Source: Planotetraspora kaengkrachanensis (GTDB taxonomy: Bacteria > Actinomycetota > Actinomycetes > Streptosporangiales > Streptosporangiaceae). Taken from it: 64,000 bases of DNA. The notes below the pieces were generated by a model. It had not been told where the DNA came from. It searched no databases and worked only from the letters and a program-made list of their open reading frames with translations. Positions 7,607 to 58,686 of this stretch are shown piece after piece. Location: assembly GCF_016862895.1 (NCBI RefSeq), contig NZ_BONV01000005.1, positions 248,001 through 312,000 of the forward strand. The letters run 5' to 3'. How positions within the stretch are numbered: position 1 is the first letter of the stretch; each line of letters starts with the position of its first letter. The translations under genes and the position numbers were made by a program.

Positions 7607-8128
7607 CTACCCATGCTGATCGCCGACCGTGCGCCGTCCGGCGACTCGGCGTTCCACCATCAGGTCCTCGACGGCTCTAGGGATGGTGGTTTCGAAGTCC
7701 AGCAGCTTCGCCCAGTCCGGCTCAACGGTGATGAGGACCATCTGGTCGTACAGGGACCGCACCCCCTGCTCCCAGCCCGCGAAGTGCTCGGCCGGGACCA
7801 CCTTCCTGGACGCTTCGACGTACGAATCCGGCACCCCGTCAACCAACTCGACCCGTGCCGCGCCACGGATCAGCAGCACCCGTGGCGGCCACTCGTCCTG
7901 GGTGTCGATGGTGAGGGCCACCCTCGGATTCCGCCGCAGCGCCCGAACCTTCGCCGATTTCGGCACGGTGGCCATGACCACCTGCTCGCCGGTCCACCAA
8001 AACCCGATCGGAATCGCCCGCGGCGCACCGTCGACGCCGACGTAGGCCAGCCGCGCGGGGATCGACGACCCCAGCAACTTTCGCGATATCGGCTTGGCCA
8101 GCACCTCGGCGACGTCTCGGCGATCCAT
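7607..8128 (-). CDS. Pyridoxamine 5'-phosphate oxidase-like (split-barrel flavin-binding) protein
   Basis: The 173-residue product has the PNPOx-like split beta-barrel: ARLAYVGVDGAPRAIPIGFW, VMATVPKSAKVRALRRNPRV and ALTIDTQDEW, which line the flavin or F420 site in this superfamily. Actinomycete members often use F420 or FMN, or bind heme; the cofactor here is not determined. ATG 8128 is chosen because GAGGGAG lies 7 bases upstream; the frame continues to 8206. It stands alone, and a 50-bp tandem repeat lies upstream. Confidence 0.85.
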   Translation of the reverse strand: MDRRDVAEVLAKPISRKLLGSSIPARLAYVGVDGAPRAIPIGFWWTGEQVVMATVPKSAKVRALRRNPRVALTIDTQDEWPPRVLLIRGAARVELVDGVPDSYVEASRKVVPAEHFAGWEQGVRSLYDQMVLITVEPDWAKLLDFETTIPRAVEDLMVERRVAGRRTVGDQHG

Positions 8129-8270
8129 GTCCATCTCCCTCGTCGGTTGACACGCCCACTCGGCGCGTTCATGAGTTGGACGGAGCCGCCCGCGCGTTCT
8201 CGACATGTTCCGGTATCCGTGCGGAGGACTTCGGAGTCACCGAAGGGTGGACTGCAGGGGCGGCGCGACC

Positions 8271-8393
8271 GCATCCGGTTTCGCGCGGACGGGAGGATGC
8301 GGTCTTGCGCGGTCCGGGAGGCATCCGGTTTCGCGCGGACGGGAGGATGCGGTCTTGCGCGGCGCTTGAGGCATCCGGTTTCTGACGGGCGGG
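8271..8393. repeat. 50-bp tandem repeat, two full copies and one partial
   Basis: Copy 1 spans 8271-8320 and copy 2 spans 8321-8370. Their first 42 bases are identical and the last 8 differ; a third copy runs from 8371 for about 11 bases before diverging. Each copy carries GCATCC and GGATGC as a small inverted repeat. It lies between the flavoprotein gene (stop at 8397) and the start of the PPOX gene. Confidence 0.9.
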
Positions 8394-8396
8394 ACC

Positions 8397-9449
8397 TTAG
8401 AAGCCGTGCCGGCGGTCGCCCAGCACGATCGCGCTGACCTCGCGTTCCATCGCCGCGGAGAAGGGCGACCTGCGGGTGGCCACGGCCCGGCGCGTGTCCT
8501 CGGCGACCAGGTCGGCGTTGATCGCCGCGGCGGCCCGCACGCCCGCGGCGGCGGCGCCGACGACCTGCTCCATCAGGTTGGCCACGTTGCCCGCCACCCA
8601 CACCCCGGGCACGTCGGTCGCCCCTGAGGGATCGGCGGCGATGTAACTGCCGATCACATGACCGCCTGCCTCCTGGTCGGTCGGCTTGAGCCCCAGCCCG
8701 CCGAGGATCTCGGCTCTGGCGGTGAAACGCGGGGTCGTCGCCAGGGCGCTGCGGGGGACCACCCTGCCGTCCGCCAGCCGTACGCCGGCGAGCCTGCCGT
8801 CCGCGGCTTCCAGCCCGGTCACCGGTCCGTCCACCACCGCGATGCCGCGGGCGGCCAGTTGCTCCCGTTCGTCCTCGGTCGGGGTGGGCGCCGTGTGCAG
8901 GAAGAGGGTCACGTCCTCGCTCCACTGCCGCCACAACAGCGCCTGGTGCACCGCCAGCGGACCGGTGCCGAGGACGCCGATCGGCTGGTCGCGCACCTCC
9001 CAGCCGTGGCAGTACGGGCAGTGGAGCACGTCGCGTCCCCACAGCTCCGCGAGCCCCGGCACGTCGGGCAGCTCGTCGACCAGGCCGGTGGTCACCAGCA
9101 GCCGGTCCGCCGCCACCCTGGATCCGTCTTCGAGCGTGAGGAGGAAGCCTCCGGCGTCCCGGCGTTCAGCCGTCGCCACGCGGCCCGTCACGATCTCACC
9201 GCCGTAGCCGATCACCTCGGCGCGGCCGGACGCGAGCAGTTGCGCGGGCGGCATCCCGTCGCGCGACAGGTAGCCGTGCACCTGGGCGGCGGGCGCGTTG
9301 CGCGGCCGCCCGTCGTCGATCACCAGCACCGAGCGACGTGCCCGCGCCAGGGTCAGGGCCCCGCTGAGGCCGGCTGCTCCCCCGCCGACGACCACGACGT
9401 CATGGCGCCGTGGCGTACCGGTGCGGGGGGCGTTTTCTTCTGGGGTCAT
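8397..9449 (-). CDS. Thioredoxin-reductase-like NAD(P)/FAD oxidoreductase
   Basis: The 350-residue flavoprotein opens with an FAD Rossmann motif, VVVGGGAAGLSG (residues ~19-30), has a redox-active CPYC pair at Cys144/Cys147 followed by HGWE, and a second nucleotide-binding stretch GVLGTGPLA. The N-terminal GGGAAG loop and CxxC position resemble bacterial thioredoxin reductase, but the C-terminal FAD motif is altered (GVWVAGNVAN), as in actinobacterial TrxR-like enzymes that may not use thioredoxin. GGAGGT sits 9 bases before the ATG. No thioredoxin gene is adjacent. Confidence 0.88.
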   Translation of the reverse strand: MTPEENAPRTGTPRRHDVVVVGGGAAGLSGALTLARARRSVLVIDDGRPRNAPAAQVHGYLSRDGMPPAQLLASGRAEVIGYGGEIVTGRVATAERRDAGGFLLTLEDGSRVAADRLLVTTGLVDELPDVPGLAELWGRDVLHCPYCHGWEVRDQPIGVLGTGPLAVHQALLWRQWSEDVTLFLHTAPTPTEDEREQLAARGIAVVDGPVTGLEAADGRLAGVRLADGRVVPRSALATTPRFTARAEILGGLGLKPTDQEAGGHVIGSYIAADPSGATDVPGVWVAGNVANLMEQVVGAAAAGVRAAAAINADLVAEDTRRAVATRRSPFSAAMEREVSAIVLGDRRHGF

Positions 9450-9540
9450 GAGTGGTACCTCCGTTCGTCAGCCGAAATGCTCGGCCCTCACGAACCCCCC
9501 TGACAAAATTTGTTGCCACCTCAGCAACTCCCCCCTTGGC

Positions 9541-9961
9541 GTGATCATGCACGGATTCGGAGAAGGGCTCGGCGACCTGCGCGTATCCGTCCCGTGATCA
9601 TGCACGGACTCGCGCCACCCCTCGCCGACCTCCCCCTCCCCTTGGCGTGATCATGCTCGGATTCGGAGAAGGGCCTGCCGACGTGCGCGTATCCGTCCCG
9701 TGATCATGCATGGACTCGCGCCACCCCTCGCCGACCTGCGCTCTTCGAGTTCATGATCATGCAGGCACTCGTCGCCGATACCCGCCCATCGATCACCGGC
9801 CTGCGACAGGCCCCTCGTACGGCGAACAGGCCGCCTGGCGAGCGTGCATGATCACCAGAGGCGTCTTCCCAGGCCCGGGCATCATTCAACGAACTTGCGC
9901 ATGATCACGAACCGGGAATGCCCAGGCCGGCAGGGCCTCCACCGAATCCGTGCATGATCAC
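9541..9961. repeat. Array of eight 53-bp repeat units, five forward and three inverted
   Basis: The core TGATCATGCA (one or two mismatches in some copies) begins at 9542, 9595, 9648, 9701 and 9754, exactly 53 bp apart. Its reverse complement lies at 9845-9854, 9898-9907 and 9951-9960, again 53 bp apart. The forward and inverted groups meet tail to tail near 9804, so the whole stretch is tiled by 53-bp units. Most units share CGGATTCG or CGGACTCG after the core, and a CCTG block around unit position 36. Units 1+2 and 3+4 are near copies, giving a 106-bp higher-order duplication. No gene is seen here. Confidence 0.92.
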
Positions 9962-9971
9962 GCGCAAGGGA

Positions 9972-10045
9972 TGGTGCCATGGTGGTGTCATGATGGCGCC
10001 ATTGAGGGCTATCAATGACGCCATCGGTGTGTCATCATGACGTCA
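9972..10045. promoter_or_regulatory. Phased TGRYGYCA operator array
   Basis: Six octamers close to TGRYGYCA begin at 9972, 9983, 9994, 10016, 10027 (GTGTGTCA) and 10038. The steps are 11 bp, with one 22-bp gap. A 14-bp inverted repeat with one mismatch (9992-10005 and 10012-10025) is embedded. The last copy overlaps the ATG of the ribbon-helix-helix gene. This arrangement is typical of operators bound side by side by RHH dimers, so autoregulation is likely. Confidence 0.7.
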
Positions 10046-10578
10046 TGGACCTCACGCCCTACGTCGACAACCTCCGGCACGAGCTCGCGGTCGCCGCGGC
10101 GGCGGGCGGCGACGACGCCCGCGCCCTGGCCGAGCGGCTCACCGCACCTCTGGAGTCCGCCGTCCGGCTCACGCTGCTCGGCGCCCTGACCGCCGCCATG
10201 GACCAGGTGACCCGTGATCTGGCGCCGGGCTCGGTCGACGTACGGCTGCGCGGTCTCGACCCCGAGTTCGTGGTGACGCAGCCGCCGTCGCAGGAGCCGC
10301 ACATGAGATCCGGAGAGTACGACGGCGCGCCTGTCAGTGCGCGGCCCATCGTCCCTCCCGCTCCCGCGGACGGCGACGACGGCACGGCCGCCCGGATCAA
10401 CTTCCGCCTCCCCGCTCATCTCAAGGCCCGCGTCGAAGACGCCGCAGGACAGGAAGGGCTCTCGGTCAACGCCTGGCTGGTGCGGGCCGTCGCCACCGCG
10501 CTGGAGCCCGGTGAGGGCGCTCCTCCGGCCGGGCGGAACCGCAGAGGTCACCAGAGCTACACAGGCTGGGTCCGCTGA
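10045..10578 (+). CDS. HicB-like ribbon-helix-helix protein
   Basis: The C-terminal third has a ribbon-helix-helix fold of the HicB/CopG type: RINFRLPAHLKARVEDAAGQ then GLSVNAWLVRAVATAL. The N-terminal ~90 residues are an alpha-helical region (LTPYVDNLRHELAVAA, DDARALAERLTAPLESAVR) that probably mediates oligomerisation. No HicA toxin gene is adjacent, so a plain regulator is more likely than an antitoxin. The ATG at 10045 lacks a ribosome-binding site and lies inside the repeated operator, suggesting a leaderless transcript. The DUF4097 gene follows 74 bases downstream, then an ABC exporter. Confidence 0.82.
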   Translation: MDLTPYVDNLRHELAVAAAAGGDDARALAERLTAPLESAVRLTLLGALTAAMDQVTRDLAPGSVDVRLRGLDPEFVVTQPPSQEPHMRSGEYDGAPVSARPIVPPAPADGDDGTAARINFRLPAHLKARVEDAAGQEGLSVNAWLVRAVATALEPGEGAPPAGRNRRGHQSYTGWVR

Positions 10579-10652
10579 CCGGTACCCGCCACTAGTCATC
10601 CACCCGCTCCACCAGCGGGAACGCACACCACAGTCATGAGGACGGCACCGCC

Positions 10653-11489
10653 ATGCCCATTTTCGACACCCCCGAACCGATCTCCGTCATCCTCGAGTTC
10701 GATATCGGATCCGCCCGGATCGTGGCCGGCGACCGCACCGACACGGTCGTCGAGGTGCTGCCGACCGACGGCGCCAACGACGACGACGTGCGGGCCGCGC
10801 AGCAGACCAAGGTCACCTGCTCGGGAGGCACCCTGCTGGTCAAGGGGCCGAGGAAGCGCTCACTGTTCGGCATGAGCGGCTCGCTCGACATCAGTGTCGA
10901 GGTGCCCGCGGGCTCGGACGTGCGGGGCACCGCCGCTTTGGCCGACTTCGTCTGCGACGGTCGTCTCGGCGATTGCAGGATCAAGACCGCGGTCGGCGAC
11001 ATCCAGGTCGACCAGGCGAAGACCGCACACCTGAAGACCGACCACGGAGAGGTCCGCGTCGACCGCGTGGCGGGCGACGCCGAGATCGCCGGGGTGGGCA
11101 GGATCGACGTCGGCGGCATCGGCGGCAGAGCGACGCTCAAGAACTCCAACGGCGAGACCACGGTCGGCGAGGTCGCGGGCGAGTTGGAGGCCACCTCGTC
11201 CAACGGCCGGGTCAACGTCGGCGTCGCGCGCGCCGGAGTCGAGGTCAGGGCCGCCAGCGGGGGCATCCGGGTCGGCGAGGTGGCACGCGGCCGGGTCATG
11301 CTGCAGACCGCGCTCGGCGACGTCGAGGTCGGCATCCGTGAGTCCACCGCCGCCTGGCTCGACGTGAACACCCGCATCGGCCGGGTGCGCAACTCTCTCG
11401 GCCCCTCCGAAGGGCCCGAGGCGTCCGACGAGACCGTCGAGATCCGCGCCCGCACGGGGCTCGGCGACATCGTGATCCGCCGCTCCTGA
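10653..11489 (+). CDS. DUF4097 family beta-strand repeat protein
   Basis: This 278-residue protein consists of repeated short strands with G-[DEN]-[IV] patterns (GDIQVDQAKT, GEVRVDRVAG, NGETTVGEVAG, NGRVNVGVARAG, GDVEVGI), the hallmark of the DUF4097 right-handed beta-helix family. No signal peptide or membrane segment is seen, so it is probably cytoplasmic. In other bacteria such domains occur with SHOCT and envelope-stress proteins. It lies between the RHH gene and the ABC exporter and is probably cotranscribed with them. Its molecular role is unknown. Confidence 0.88.
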   Translation: MPIFDTPEPISVILEFDIGSARIVAGDRTDTVVEVLPTDGANDDDVRAAQQTKVTCSGGTLLVKGPRKRSLFGMSGSLDISVEVPAGSDVRGTAALADFVCDGRLGDCRIKTAVGDIQVDQAKTAHLKTDHGEVRVDRVAGDAEIAGVGRIDVGGIGGRATLKNSNGETTVGEVAGELEATSSNGRVNVGVARAGVEVRAASGGIRVGEVARGRVMLQTALGDVEVGIRESTAAWLDVNTRIGRVRNSLGPSEGPEASDETVEIRARTGLGDIVIRRS

Positions 11490-11588
11490 TCGCACCCACC
11501 GCAGAGCGCTCCCGACCCGAACGTCACCGAACCCCACCGGCGCAGCAGCACGCTCTGACCCGCCCACGCAGAAAGGCACGCGATCTCC

Positions 11589-46536: not shown

Positions 46537-46548
46537 GCCCCGGCCGCG

Positions 46549-46582
46549 GTCTCAGTCAGTGCCGGGTCTCAGTCAGTGCCGG
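46549..46582. repeat. Short tandem direct repeat
   Basis: GTCTCAGTCAGTGCCGG occurs twice in tandem (46549-46565 and 46566-46582), and a third GTCTCAGcC fragment adjoins. It lies between the large membrane protein and the leftward WYL gene and has no obvious function. Confidence 0.7.
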
Positions 46583-46584
46583 TC

Positions 46585-47544
46585 TCAGCCGGCGGCGCGG
46601 TCGTAGCGGGCGGCCAGTTCGCGCAGGTGCGCCGCCAACTCCGGCGGGTCGTCGACGGTGAAGTCGAGCCCGAGCAGCCCGAGATGGACGGCGATGGTGC
46701 CGAGCGTGTCCGCCCCCGTCCGCAGGACGCTCGTGGTCTCGTCGACGACCTCGACGGTCCCGACCGCGGGCGTGATCCGCTCGGCGACGGCCTGCGCGGG
46801 CGCGTGAACGATCACCCTGGCGTTGTGACGCCAGCCCGCCGCTGACACCCGGCGCGAGACGTAGGCGGCGACGTCATCCTCGGGCAGTTCGCGGGGCGCG
46901 AACCTCGGGCCGTTCGGCGTGCGCGGTTCGATGCGGTCGACCCGGAACGTCCGCCAGTCGCCGCGGTCGGCGTCCCAGGCCACCAGGTACCACCGCCGTC
47001 CCCAGTTGACCAGCCGGTACGGCTCCGCCGTACGGAGGCCGACCGTCCCCGCGTGGTCGCGGTAGTCGAACCGAAGCAGTTCGCGGTCGCGGCAGGCGGC
47101 CGCCAGCGTCGTCAGCACCTCGGGGTCGACCGACGGTGCCCCGCCGTCGCGCGGCACCGGGACGGTGTAGGTGTGCAGGGCGTTGACCCGGCGGCGCAGC
47201 CGGGAGGGCAGCACCTGCTCGAGCTTGGCCAGTGCGCGCAGGGACGTCTCCTCCAGGCCCGCGATCGCCCCGCCGGCCGCGGTGCGCAGCCCCACCGCGA
47301 CGGCCACCGCCTCCTCGTCGTCGAGCAGGAGCGGCGGGAGGGCCGACCCGGCGCCCAGCCGGTAACCGCCCACCGGCCCGCGAGCGGCGTTGACGGGATA
47401 GCCGAGGGACCGCAGCCGCTCCACGTCGTTGCGGACGGTGCGCGTGCTCACGCCCAGCCGTTCGGCGAGATCGGTCCCCGTCCAGTCGCGCGGCGTCTGC
47501 AGCAGTGACAGCAGGCGGAGAAGCCGCGCCGAGGTCTCCAACAT
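46585..47544 (-). CDS. WYL-domain HTH regulator (YafY type)
   Basis: The 319-residue protein has an HTH_11 winged helix at the start (LLRLLSLLQTPRDWTGTDLA, RLGVSTRTVRNDVERLRSLG) and a WYL domain (residues ~145-235; LRFDYRDHAG, PYRLVNWGRRWYLVAWDADR) with a C-terminal WCX domain. WYL proteins bind single-stranded nucleic acid or other ligands and commonly control DNA-damage or defence genes. It is divergent from an AlkZ-like gene, with a dyad operator between them, suggesting a DNA-damage-linked pair. Confidence 0.9.
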   Translation of the reverse strand: MLETSARLLRLLSLLQTPRDWTGTDLAERLGVSTRTVRNDVERLRSLGYPVNAARGPVGGYRLGAGSALPPLLLDDEEAVAVAVGLRTAAGGAIAGLEETSLRALAKLEQVLPSRLRRRVNALHTYTVPVPRDGGAPSVDPEVLTTLAAACRDRELLRFDYRDHAGTVGLRTAEPYRLVNWGRRWYLVAWDADRGDWRTFRVDRIEPRTPNGPRFAPRELPEDDVAAYVSRRVSAAGWRHNARVIVHAPAQAVAERITPAVGTVEVVDETTSVLRTGADTLGTIAVHLGLLGLDFTVDDPPELAAHLRELAARYDRAAG

Positions 47545-56472: not shown

Positions 56473-57237
56473 ATGGAAAGTGCCGACCGGATCCGCGCCA
56501 TCATGAACGAGCTGCGGACGTCCGACAGCGTCTCGGTGGCCGAGCTCGCCGCCCTGCACGGCGTCTCGGAGATGACCATCCGCCGCGACCTCGACGAACT
56601 GGCGCAGCAGGGCGTGGTGCGGCGGGTCCGCGGAGGCGCGCTCAGCCTGCTCCTGCGCGGGGAGGAGCCGCCCTTCGGCGTCCGCGAGCGCGAGGCGGTC
56701 GACGCCAAGCAGCGGATCGGCGCGGAGGTGGCGAGCCTGCTCGCGGACGGCGAGGCCGTCCTGCTCGACGGCGGCACGACCGTCCTCGAGGTCGCCAGAG
56801 CGATACACGACCGCCGGCTCACGGTGCTTCCGCTCGCCCTGCAGGCGACGCAGGAGCTCGCCGGGGCTCCGCGGATCCGCCTCGTCCTTCCCGGCGGCGA
56901 GGTCCGGCACGGCGAGATGAACTTCGTCGGCCCGCTGACCGAGGCCTCCATCAGGTCGTTGCGGTTCGACACCGCGGTCATCGGCTGCTGCGGCCTGTCC
57001 GCCGAGCACGGCCTGACCGCCCACGACCTGCCGGAGGTCGCGATCAAACAGACCGCCCTCGCCTCCGCCCGCCGCGTCGTGGTCGCCTGCGACTCGGGGA
57101 AGTTCTCCCGCACGGCGTTCGGCTCGGTCTGCACGCTCGACAGGCTGGACGTCGTCGTCACCGACGAGGGCATCCCCCAGGACCAGCACGACGCCCTCAC
57201 CGCCGCCGGCGTGACCGTCCGCATCCCCCCCGCGTGA
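56473..57237 (+). CDS. DeoR/GlpR-family transcriptional regulator
   Basis: The 254-residue protein begins with the DeoR HTH (ADRIRAIMNELRTSDSVSVA, LHGVSEMTIRRDLDELAQQG) and has a sugar-phosphate-sensing DeoRC domain (DGEAVLLDGGTTVLEVARAI, VIGCCGLSAEHGLTAHDLPE, VVACDSGKFSRTAFGSV). DeoR proteins repress sugar or polyol genes and respond to phosphorylated sugars. The stop codon (TGA) is followed by a 53-bp repeat array and an MFS gene, which may be its target. Confidence 0.93.
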   Translation: MESADRIRAIMNELRTSDSVSVAELAALHGVSEMTIRRDLDELAQQGVVRRVRGGALSLLLRGEEPPFGVREREAVDAKQRIGAEVASLLADGEAVLLDGGTTVLEVARAIHDRRLTVLPLALQATQELAGAPRIRLVLPGGEVRHGEMNFVGPLTEASIRSLRFDTAVIGCCGLSAEHGLTAHDLPEVAIKQTALASARRVVVACDSGKFSRTAFGSVCTLDRLDVVVTDEGIPQDQHDALTAAGVTVRIPPA

Positions 57238-57278: not shown

Positions 57279-57437
57279 GTGATCATGCACAGGTTCGTGA
57301 AGATGCCCTCCCACCTGCGCCCTTCCACTACGTGATCATGCACGGATTCGGCCGCGTCACCGCTCACCTGGCCGAATCCGGTCCGTGATCATGCAGTCCT
57401 CACCGTTGGAGCCCTGCCTCATGGCGCCACTCGCCAC
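57279..57437. repeat. Second array of 53-bp repeat units (three copies)
   Basis: TGATCATGCA occurs at 57280, 57333 and 57386, exactly 53 bp apart. Units 57279-57331 and 57332-57384 match the array at 9.5 kb (GTGATCATGCAC, TTCG and CCTG blocks). The third unit runs into the MFS start at 57421. A truncated TGATCAC overlaps the stop of the DeoR gene at 57235. The array is in the same orientation as the first five units of the other array. Confidence 0.9.
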
Positions 57438-58686
57438 CGCCCCGCCCTCCCTGCGGCGCGCCCGCATCGCCGTCTTCGGGCTGTTCCTGCTCGCCGGAAC
57501 GGCCATCGGCACCTGGACCGCCCGCATCCCCGCCATCAAGCACGACCTCGCCCTCTCCGACGGCCGCCTGAGCCTGGCACTGCTCGGCATCGCGGCGGGC
57601 GCCATCACCGGAATGCTGGTCATCGGCCGGCTCGTCGACCGGTACGGCAGCGACCGCGTGATGATCCCGGCGGCGCTCGCCCAGGGAGCCGTCCTGGTGC
57701 TCCCGGCCCTCGCGCCCAGCCTGCCGATGCTCACGCTGGCCCTGTTCCTGTTCGGCGTCGTCAACGGCACACTCGACGTCTCGATGAACGCCAACGCCGT
57801 CACCGTCGAACGCGCGTACGGCCGGCCGATCATGTCGGCCTTCCACGCGGTGTTCAGCGTCGGCGGCTTCGCCGGGTCGGCGCTGGGCGGGGTTTTCGCG
57901 AGCGCCGACGTGAGCCCGGCCGTCACCTTCGCGGTCGCCGGAGCGCTCATCCTGGTCGTCGCGGTGTTGTCGGCCCGCTGTGCCCTGCGCGACACCCCGC
58001 ACCCCCCGGAGCCGGAAACCGCCGCGCCCGAAGCCGCTCAGGGAACCACCGGAACCGGCCCCGCCGGCCGGACCACCCCGGCTCGGCGCCGCCTGCCGCA
58101 GGGCGCGTTCTTCCTCGGCGTGCTCGCATTCTGCGGCCTCGTCGGCGAGGGGGCCTCCGCCGACTGGAGTTCGGTCTACCTCCACGACGATCTCGGCTCC
58201 TCCCCCGGCTTCGCCGCCGCCGCGTTCGCCGCCTTCTCGATCATGATGACCGCCGGGCGTTTCGCAGGCGACCGCCTCGCGGCCCGCCTGGGCCCGGTAA
58301 CCCTGGTGCGCGGCTGTGGCCTGCTCGGCGCCGCCGGTCTCGCGATCAACCTCCTGATCGGCACGCCGGTCGCCGGGGTCGTCGGATTCGCCCTGTTCGG
58401 CGCGGGGCTGTCGTGCGTCATCCCGCAGGTCTTCTCCGCCGCCGGGCACCGCGACCCCGCGCAGTCCGGACGCGCGCTCGCGGTGGTGGCGAGCCTCGGA
58501 TACACCGGTTTCCTCGCCGGCCCGGTGATCATCGGTTCCCTCGCGGAACTCGTCACCCTGCCGAAGGCCCTGTTCGTCCCCGCCCTGCTGACGCTTCTCG
58601 TCGCCCTTGCCGCCCCCGCCGTACGGCCGGCGCGAACCGGCGGAACGGACGCCGCCGACGTGCCCGCTCAGGCGAACTGGTCGTAG
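57421..58686 (+). CDS. MFS transporter
   Basis: The 421-residue protein has 12 predicted membrane helices and MFS motifs: GRLVDRYGSDRVMI (loop 2-3), TWTARIPAIKHDLALSDGRL near the start, SVGGFAGSALGG and GEGASADWSSVYL. It resembles FucP/DUF-type sugar or drug:H+ symporters; the substrate is uncertain. ATG 57421 has GGAG 9 bases upstream and lies inside the third 53-bp repeat. Its end overlaps the TauE/SafE gene by 19 bases. It may be controlled by the DeoR protein encoded just upstream. Confidence 0.88.
   Translation: MAPLATAPPSLRRARIAVFGLFLLAGTAIGTWTARIPAIKHDLALSDGRLSLALLGIAAGAITGMLVIGRLVDRYGSDRVMIPAALAQGAVLVLPALAPSLPMLTLALFLFGVVNGTLDVSMNANAVTVERAYGRPIMSAFHAVFSVGGFAGSALGGVFASADVSPAVTFAVAGALILVVAVLSARCALRDTPHPPEPETAAPEAAQGTTGTGPAGRTTPARRRLPQGAFFLGVLAFCGLVGEGASADWSSVYLHDDLGSSPGFAAAAFAAFSIMMTAGRFAGDRLAARLGPVTLVRGCGLLGAAGLAINLLIGTPVAGVVGFALFGAGLSCVIPQVFSAAGHRDPAQSGRALAVVASLGYTGFLAGPVIIGSLAELVTLPKALFVPALLTLLVALAAPAVRPARTGGTDAADVPAQANWS

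Follow-up and report, generated by a model that had tools for sequence, protein, structure and literature searches.

The window analyzed here, a 64-kb stretch (64,000 nucleotides) of the Planotetraspora kaengkrachanensis genome, contains an array of short repeats at 9541-9961, in the gap between two divergent genes that both turn their 5′ ends toward it. The left neighbor is an FAD/NAD(P) oxidoreductase (Pyr_redox_2; 8397-9449, minus strand), which scores under the NCBIfam cut-off for thioredoxin reductase; the right neighbor (10045-10578, plus strand, with an alternative earlier start possible at 10015) is a 177-aa protein that has no Pfam or NCBIfam match at E 1e-5. Each repeat is built on the core TGATCATGCA. 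Five cores on the plus strand (9542, 9595, 9648, 9701, and 9754) make up one sub-array (9542-9763), three on the minus strand (9951 outermost, then 9898, and 9845 innermost) make up another (9845-9960), and same-strand cores follow one another at a step of 53 bp, giving four plus-strand and two minus-strand intervals; the cores at 9648 and 9898 carry one mismatch each. A C-rich outer edge, CCCCCCTTGGCG (9530-9541, plus strand), stands ahead of the first core, toward the left gene.

A preliminary description of this DNA had reported five forward and three inverted cores at strict 53-bp steps, an inversion point near 9804, and duplication of units 1+2 and 3+4 as 106-bp pairs. All eight positions are recovered, two of them with one mismatch, the inversion point is confirmed, and two 100-nt stretches that lie 106 bp apart, 9532-9631 and 9638-9737, are 94% identical. 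The window holds 15 core matches at ≤1 mismatch, as compared with a mean of 1.52 and a maximum of 5 in dinucleotide shuffles. The observation holds except for the claim that units tile the 421 bp completely: the center, which measures 91 bp from core start to core start and leaves 81 bp between the inner cores (9764-9844), is not a multiple of 53 and contains no units.

A second array in the window (57280-57395, plus strand) consists of three exact cores at 57280, 57333, and 57386, again with a 53-bp step, and lies between genes for a DeoR-type regulator (56473-57237, plus strand) and an MFS transporter (57421-58686, plus strand). Repeats of other kinds are also present: short tandem repeats of ~24/50 bp at 8271-8382, just past the 3′ end of the oxidoreductase gene, and 2.7 copies of a 17-bp tandem repeat, GCCGGGTCTCAGTCAGT, at 46543-46588.

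Unit anatomy, polarity and placement

The core occurs in 811 copies in the P. kaengkrachanensis genome. A sample of 852 kb (contig C1, 1-540000, and contig C5, 1-312000) holds 101 exact cores, of which 99 fall into 20 arrays and 2 are single; extrapolated from this sample (811/101 × 20), the genome has perhaps ~160 arrays. Genome-wide enrichment at 53 bp, whose absence would have refuted the preliminary description by its own criterion, is evident: exact cores on the same strand form 56 pairs at 53 bp and 37 at 106 bp in the 852 kb, and other short distances are rare.

Aligned over 465 full units, the consensus begins with CG and the core, continues with ~CAGGTTCG at positions 11-18 and a loose stretch, and then shows C[C/T]GACCTG[C/G] at 31-39, [A/C]C.C at 44-47, and the CG that stands ahead of the next core. 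The loci were selected for exact arrays, and the constancy of the core in these data, as in the dialect data below, is therefore due in part to selection of loci by exact cores. A C-rich stretch precedes the first core (196 cases); since conservation ends directly past the last core (151 cases), core-(body-core)n is the better notation for an array. Each unit has two blocks of information, reflected in a 26.5-bp component of its information content (p < 0.001, 2000 permutations). A 10.6-bp periodicity is not significant (p = 0.41), and the argument that binding runs along one helical face was dropped for that reason. The strongest covariation within the unit is between near-neighbor positions, and the pair 11-13 mirrors the dialects. 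Next to one array (G000, contig C1, ~450760-450870), inspection by eye reveals a series of shorter degenerate repeats built as ATGATCAC + CCCAAGACA, perhaps a decayed array or one of a different type.

The arrays are polar. Plus-strand runs lie on the left and minus-strand runs on the right, reading from the gene edge inwards, with a single exception in 115 gaps (L140, where the units are reversed in P. silvatica). The opposite order, minus then plus, is absent within 700 bp in the 852 kb of the P. kaengkrachanensis genome; such neighbors are also seen in L160 and twice in 160 kb of strain A-T 1434, and are common in genus g50, where cores occur as palindromes or in mixed clusters. Where a gap is two-sided, the innermost cores of the two strands are separated by 23 bp, modulo 53, in 13/59 cases.

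Relative to genes, which were called with a simple gene finder so that their starts are approximate, the family is intergenic, as had been proposed: 9 of 673 cores fall within called genes. Placement was scored for 186 of 195 runs, the outer gene being cut off in the other 9. A gene 3′ end borders 120/186 runs, at a median distance of 19 bp, and a 5′ end borders the other 66/186, at a median of 120 bp, whereas the edges of background gaps (>150 bp, sample of the same genome) comprise 191 3′ ends vs 291 5′ ends. Convergent gene pairs flank 45/115 array gaps vs 76/438 background gaps, co-directional pairs 55/115 vs 224/438, and divergent pairs, such as that around the window array, 15/115 vs 138/438. 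Among the co-directional array gaps, 19 have sense runs only, 10 antisense runs only, and 26 both. The 66 runs at 5′ ends, together with the antisense-only runs, mean that a plain terminator is not enough to account for the arrays. The 3′-end preference could in part reflect that insertions behind a stop codon are tolerated. The flanking genes share no obvious function (two sets of 39 and 88 proteins, judged by the first 25 Pfam families tallied in each), nor do cargo genes flanked by arrays have anything in common by eye. An RNA gene between the two arms of L113 was considered and rejected: the segment has no Rfam match and contains an ordinary open frame.

Conservation, decay and dialects

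Orthologous sequence was sought in three relatives, P. mira (G125), P. silvatica (G022), and a third genome, G104, taken by elimination as P. phitsanulokensis, at ten P. kaengkrachanensis sites within 200 kb. In P. mira and P. silvatica, five sites could be anchored each, and at 5/5 an array lies in the same gap; the number of units there differs between species, as expected from the proposal of a variable-number locus. All ten sites could be anchored in G104, where cores are mutated or the array is internally deleted or missing; the window array is shrunk to a short remnant.

Divergence separates the core from its surroundings. Over six sites, P. mira differs from P. kaengkrachanensis by 9.9% in the flanks, 2.1% in the core, and 36% at free unit positions, and P. 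silvatica by 10.0%, 1.7%, and 38%, respectively; the aligner may pair non-orthologous units, so that the free-position values are upper bounds and the core values are possibly flattered. Of 25 exact cores, 18 are kept in P. mira and 19 in P. silvatica. In G104 (twelve sites) the flanks are 7.5% diverged, the core 16.7%, and the free positions 27%; of 57 exact cores, 13 are still exact and 28 are aligned to gaps. Where all three relatives can be compared, at six sites, exact cores number 25 in P. kaengkrachanensis, 24 in P. mira, 24 in P. silvatica, and 8 in G104, a contrast that is independent of unit mispairing by the aligner. A search for genes lost in G104 that might encode a reader of the arrays gave no clear candidate among 255 P. 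kaengkrachanensis genes (162 + 93, ~300 kb).

Arrays have also been gained or lost: a convergent junction that bears an array in P. thailandica (L132) lacks one in P. kaengkrachanensis. Other positions persist over longer distances, e.g., both P. thailandica and strain A-T 1434 have the P. kaengkrachanensis array of C1:307979 at the corresponding junction. Comparison of flanking proteins (113 Planotetraspora records, 97 of them unique, and 33 Microbispora records, 23 unique) finds three junctions with arrays in both genera and both flanks matching, and a fourth that matches at one flank. These pair what we take to be a RelA/SpoT-like with a DUF349-like gene; presumably a 2Fe-2S protein with an amidohydrolase resembling 8-oxoguanine deaminase; and, as we read it, a MurT-like gene with a 1029-residue protein (all three assigned by eye). 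Three shared junctions among 23 in Microbispora vs 97 in Planotetraspora exceed the expected 0.50 (P for three or more = 0.0125); given so few junctions and non-random sampling, the case for conservation across genera is suggestive.

The bases next to the core are spelled differently in different lineages. Dialects were compared in 378/465 units, the remainder lacking a species label or coming from P. phitsanulokensis or Microbispora. P. kaengkrachanensis, P. mira, and P. silvatica share one spelling, with C at position 11 in 93-98% and G at position 13 in 63-80% of units; among the 115 units of P. thailandica, 98% carry G at position 11 and 97% carry A at position 13; in strain A-T 1434, position 18 is C in 58/58 units, as compared with G in 91-98% in the other four taxa. 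Two taxa of the five thus spell the core-adjacent bases differently, and do so at almost every unit sampled. A single junction can be found in three spellings: CACATTCG in P. kaengkrachanensis, GAAGTTCG in P. thailandica, and CACATTCC in A-T 1434. Because the dialect positions switch at nearly all units while others vary, a changed reader fits better than copying of whole units. In Microbispora the outermost unit is marked as well: the cap TGATCTTGTA is found at 37/46 outer and 0/84 inner cores, and GTTTGTCGCA follows the core in 32/46 outer and 3/84 inner units.

High core counts are confined to a minority of genomes. Among 297 genomes of the family, the five of the genus have 309 to 1106 copies and most others fewer than 30; counts are also raised in some other genera, among them G059 with 847 (this is strain A-T 1434, assigned in the genome set to a genus other than Planotetraspora), G050 with 238, G090 with 181, G089 with 149, G051 with 107, G186 with 94, and G025 with 91. 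A reversed-pattern control is near zero, yet it contains CTAG and is hence too low; the other genomes of the family are the fairer control. In public genomes, the exact 53-bp pair is present in at least 99 stretches, and among the 80 matches listed, 78 are from Planotetraspora and 2 from Microbispora. Pairs of the degenerate core GTGATCWTGYA are found in 15/200 family genomes and 6/68 genera (control, 0), and within Microbispora some species have many such pairs and others none.

Array architecture varies along with spelling. Genus g34 (G034 and G084; L319-L328) has TGATCTTGCA, often followed by a stretch ending in CTCGCA, at a 53-bp step; G051 has 41-bp arrays; genera g48, g50, and g25 have palindromic core pairs. 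In a survey of the class (128 genomes, 119 of them outside the family), three genomes from two other actinobacterial families are positive and combine the core with other extensions: G329 has GTGATCATGCAATCCCGCCACCC at irregular spacing, G388 mostly GTGATCATGCA[G/C]ATC[C/T]TGG, also at irregular spacing, and G327 has 22-bp units. In the segments inspected, their clusters (13, 6, and 3, respectively, two single cores included) run plus then minus and none is reversed, with all three of those in G327 being one-sided. Beside array cores of G329 (L302 and L305) lies, by eye, a second repeated element of that genome, a long imperfect palindrome that starts with ~CAGAATGCTGGATTCGGCAC and has a matching inverse end.

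A putative reader and competing explanations

We propose that the arrays line up binding sites for a putative reader, either a single DNA-binding protein with sequence specificity or a complex of two proteins. The 53-bp unit would offer it a block A, CG-TGATCATGCA plus ~8 lineage-variable bases, and a block B, ~C[C/T]GACCTGC. The protein would load onto successive units at fixed spacing, the first unit facing the gene, and build a polar nucleoprotein fence that may stop or insulate transcription at the limits of transcription units, chiefly right behind stop codons and between convergent genes. Judged from the sequence comparisons, the arrays are very probably protein-binding and under selection, and the suggestion of protein-binding sites in the preliminary description gains support from purifying selection on the core and from the dialects. 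Granted protein binding, a boundary function has an even chance. Protein-binding arrays that work as a boundary or roadblock between transcription units are the best explanation as a whole, with a probability of roughly 0.45. We infer both the protein nature of the reader and the boundary role; the sequences themselves show fixed spacing, polarity, near-exclusion from genes, purifying selection on the core, dialects at dispersed sites, conservation in place, and decay in one species.

ArgR offers a first lead to the reader. In Streptomyces coelicolor, the ArgR box of SCO5864, which is among the fragments bound in band shifts, contains GTGATCATGCA (PMC5839063, Table 1). A weight matrix built from 36 of the 44 boxes in that table (the SCO5864 box and seven marked as outside the paper's model were omitted) gives the 86 exact cores of contig C1 a median of 9.9 bits, at the 99.98th percentile; when positions in 540 kb are ranked by likeness to ArgR boxes, array cores account for 47 of the top 100 and 14 of the top 20, and 0/200 column-shuffled matrices score as well, although the matrix was tried after the core had turned up in its source paper, so that some choice is built in. 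Against the ARG-box matrix, the core thus scores roughly on a par with genuine boxes, and a palindromic ARG box, TGCATGATCATGCA, would contain it. Unlike the ARG boxes tabulated for Streptomyces, one or two contiguous 20-bp boxes that are mostly listed by their distance from a start codon (PMC5839063), the arrays are rows with a 53-bp step at gene ends, with block B and the dialect positions outside the ARG box. In a P. phitsanulokensis record (L092, 568-1236), an intact ArgR gene is followed closely past its stop codon by a three-core array; loss of ArgR alone thus does not explain the decay in G104, if that genome is of this species. The first candidate for the reader is a member of the ArgR family or another protein whose DNA-binding domain is ArgR-like, a lead of low probability; an ArgR paralogue or partner is possible.

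The same evidence bears on a rival proposal, namely that the arrays are operators of a conventional transcription factor, e.g., of an ArgR regulon. The matrix score, the 11-mer in the ArgR-bound SCO5864 fragment (PMC5839063), and the 23-bp spacing of inner cores, which is near that of paired ARG boxes, speak for it. Yet the flanking genes lack an obvious common function, 120 of the 186 runs lie at gene 3′ ends rather than the promoter side, where the 66 at 5′ ends are found, and ArgR is intact in L092; we regard operator arrays as unlikely.

Extragenic repeats of the REP/BIME kind, palindromic sequences whose RNA hairpins act as terminators or mRNA stabilizers or which serve as gyrase sites, share the placement of the arrays. 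In two species, REPs are reported next to (<20 bp) the 3′ ends where ORFs converge (PMC3733652), and array runs at 3′ ends begin at a median of 19 bp past the stop. The GTAG and CGTC families are likewise dispersed, intergenic, close to gene 3′ ends, arranged in inverted clusters, and variable in copy number between strains (PMC3733652). The palindromic core pairs of g48, g50, and g25 and, by eye, terminator-like hairpins in several array centers could fit this picture too. The units themselves do not. A plausible unit hairpin can be drawn, but 7/8 of its pairs are within the null, and the one slightly above it, 14-35 (mutual information 0.041 vs 0.032 at the 99% null), does not change to standard pairs. 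RNA structure as the basis of the arrays was accordingly rejected, there being no compensatory change in the hairpin and no Rfam family around the window array: a search of 8000-11500 gave nothing near the gathering score and two sub-threshold matches (E 0.52 and 0.63). The Y1 transposase domain of RAYTs (PF01797) is absent from P. kaengkrachanensis and 3/4 other genomes of the genus, and the 7/24 genomes that have it include both array-bearing and array-free ones. A universal reader such as gyrase would leave both the decay in G104 and the dialects unexplained. Strict 53-bp direct rows, inward polarity, the lack of covarying stems, a mostly RAYT-free genus, and the dialects set the arrays apart from REP/BIME elements, and a common nature with them is improbable.

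Dialects and decay could also arise if the core were an uptake signal, with preferential uptake of DNA accumulating copies and a change or loss of the receptor altering or eroding them. Neisseria DUS and Haemophilus USS are words with a core of ~10 bp, repeated very many times and also found as inverted pairs, in which a constant part is joined to dialect positions. The arrays resemble them in their constant core with dialect positions, their many copies, the palindromic pairs of some genera, and decay in one species, and ComEC, present in 20/20 genomes whether array-bearing or array-free, does not discriminate. DUS and USS, however, are largely single copies in coding DNA, unlike intergenic rows; scattered genic singles are not what is found here (9/673 cores in called genes, 2/101 single), and strict 53-bp arrays would be unexpected from uptake drive. 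We consider an uptake signal very unlikely. HIP1 of cyanobacteria, too, is a short GATC-containing word that is over-represented in a lineage for reasons unknown, but it is scattered, not arrayed. Mycobacterial MIRUs share intergenic tandem units of similar length and variable number with the arrays, an analogy of size and place only; the arrays differ in having inverted halves and in conserving both core and spacing.

A mobile miniature element, one of the possibilities raised in the preliminary description, that still inserts beside genes would account for presence and absence between species (L132 in P. thailandica vs P. kaengkrachanensis) but is highly improbable: positions are kept across species and, at three junctions, across two genera; among sampled arrays (26 without a species label set aside) 1/1153 same-species pairs is ≥88% alike over 90 bp, and this pair is two arms of one locus; the RAYT domain is mostly absent; one array-free site examined by eye has no clean empty target or target duplication; and viral contigs contain no exact pair, while plasmid and phage matches are short and at chance level.

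Proposed role and significance

Protein-binding arrays at the boundaries of transcription units may represent a class of elements in Actinomycetes: polar, phased arrays that combine a constant core, GTGATC[A/T]TG[C/T]A, with a lineage-specific extension, are inherited vertically, are rewritten in concert as their reader changes, and decay when it is lost. The reader of such a class may be an ArgR-family protein turned to chromosome architecture. On the sequence comparisons, we rate this broader proposal as slightly less than an even bet.

Open-access literature searches found no published description of the arrays. If the proposal is true, some actinomycetes mark many gene boundaries with an ordered nucleoprotein array, and we know of no bacterial repeat family that does so. 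The arrays would raise an evolutionary question, namely how the same bases change in concert in dozens of dispersed arrays while their neighbors drift, and the relative in which they decay would provide a natural experiment for finding the reader. In actinomycete engineering, the arrays could serve as insulators.
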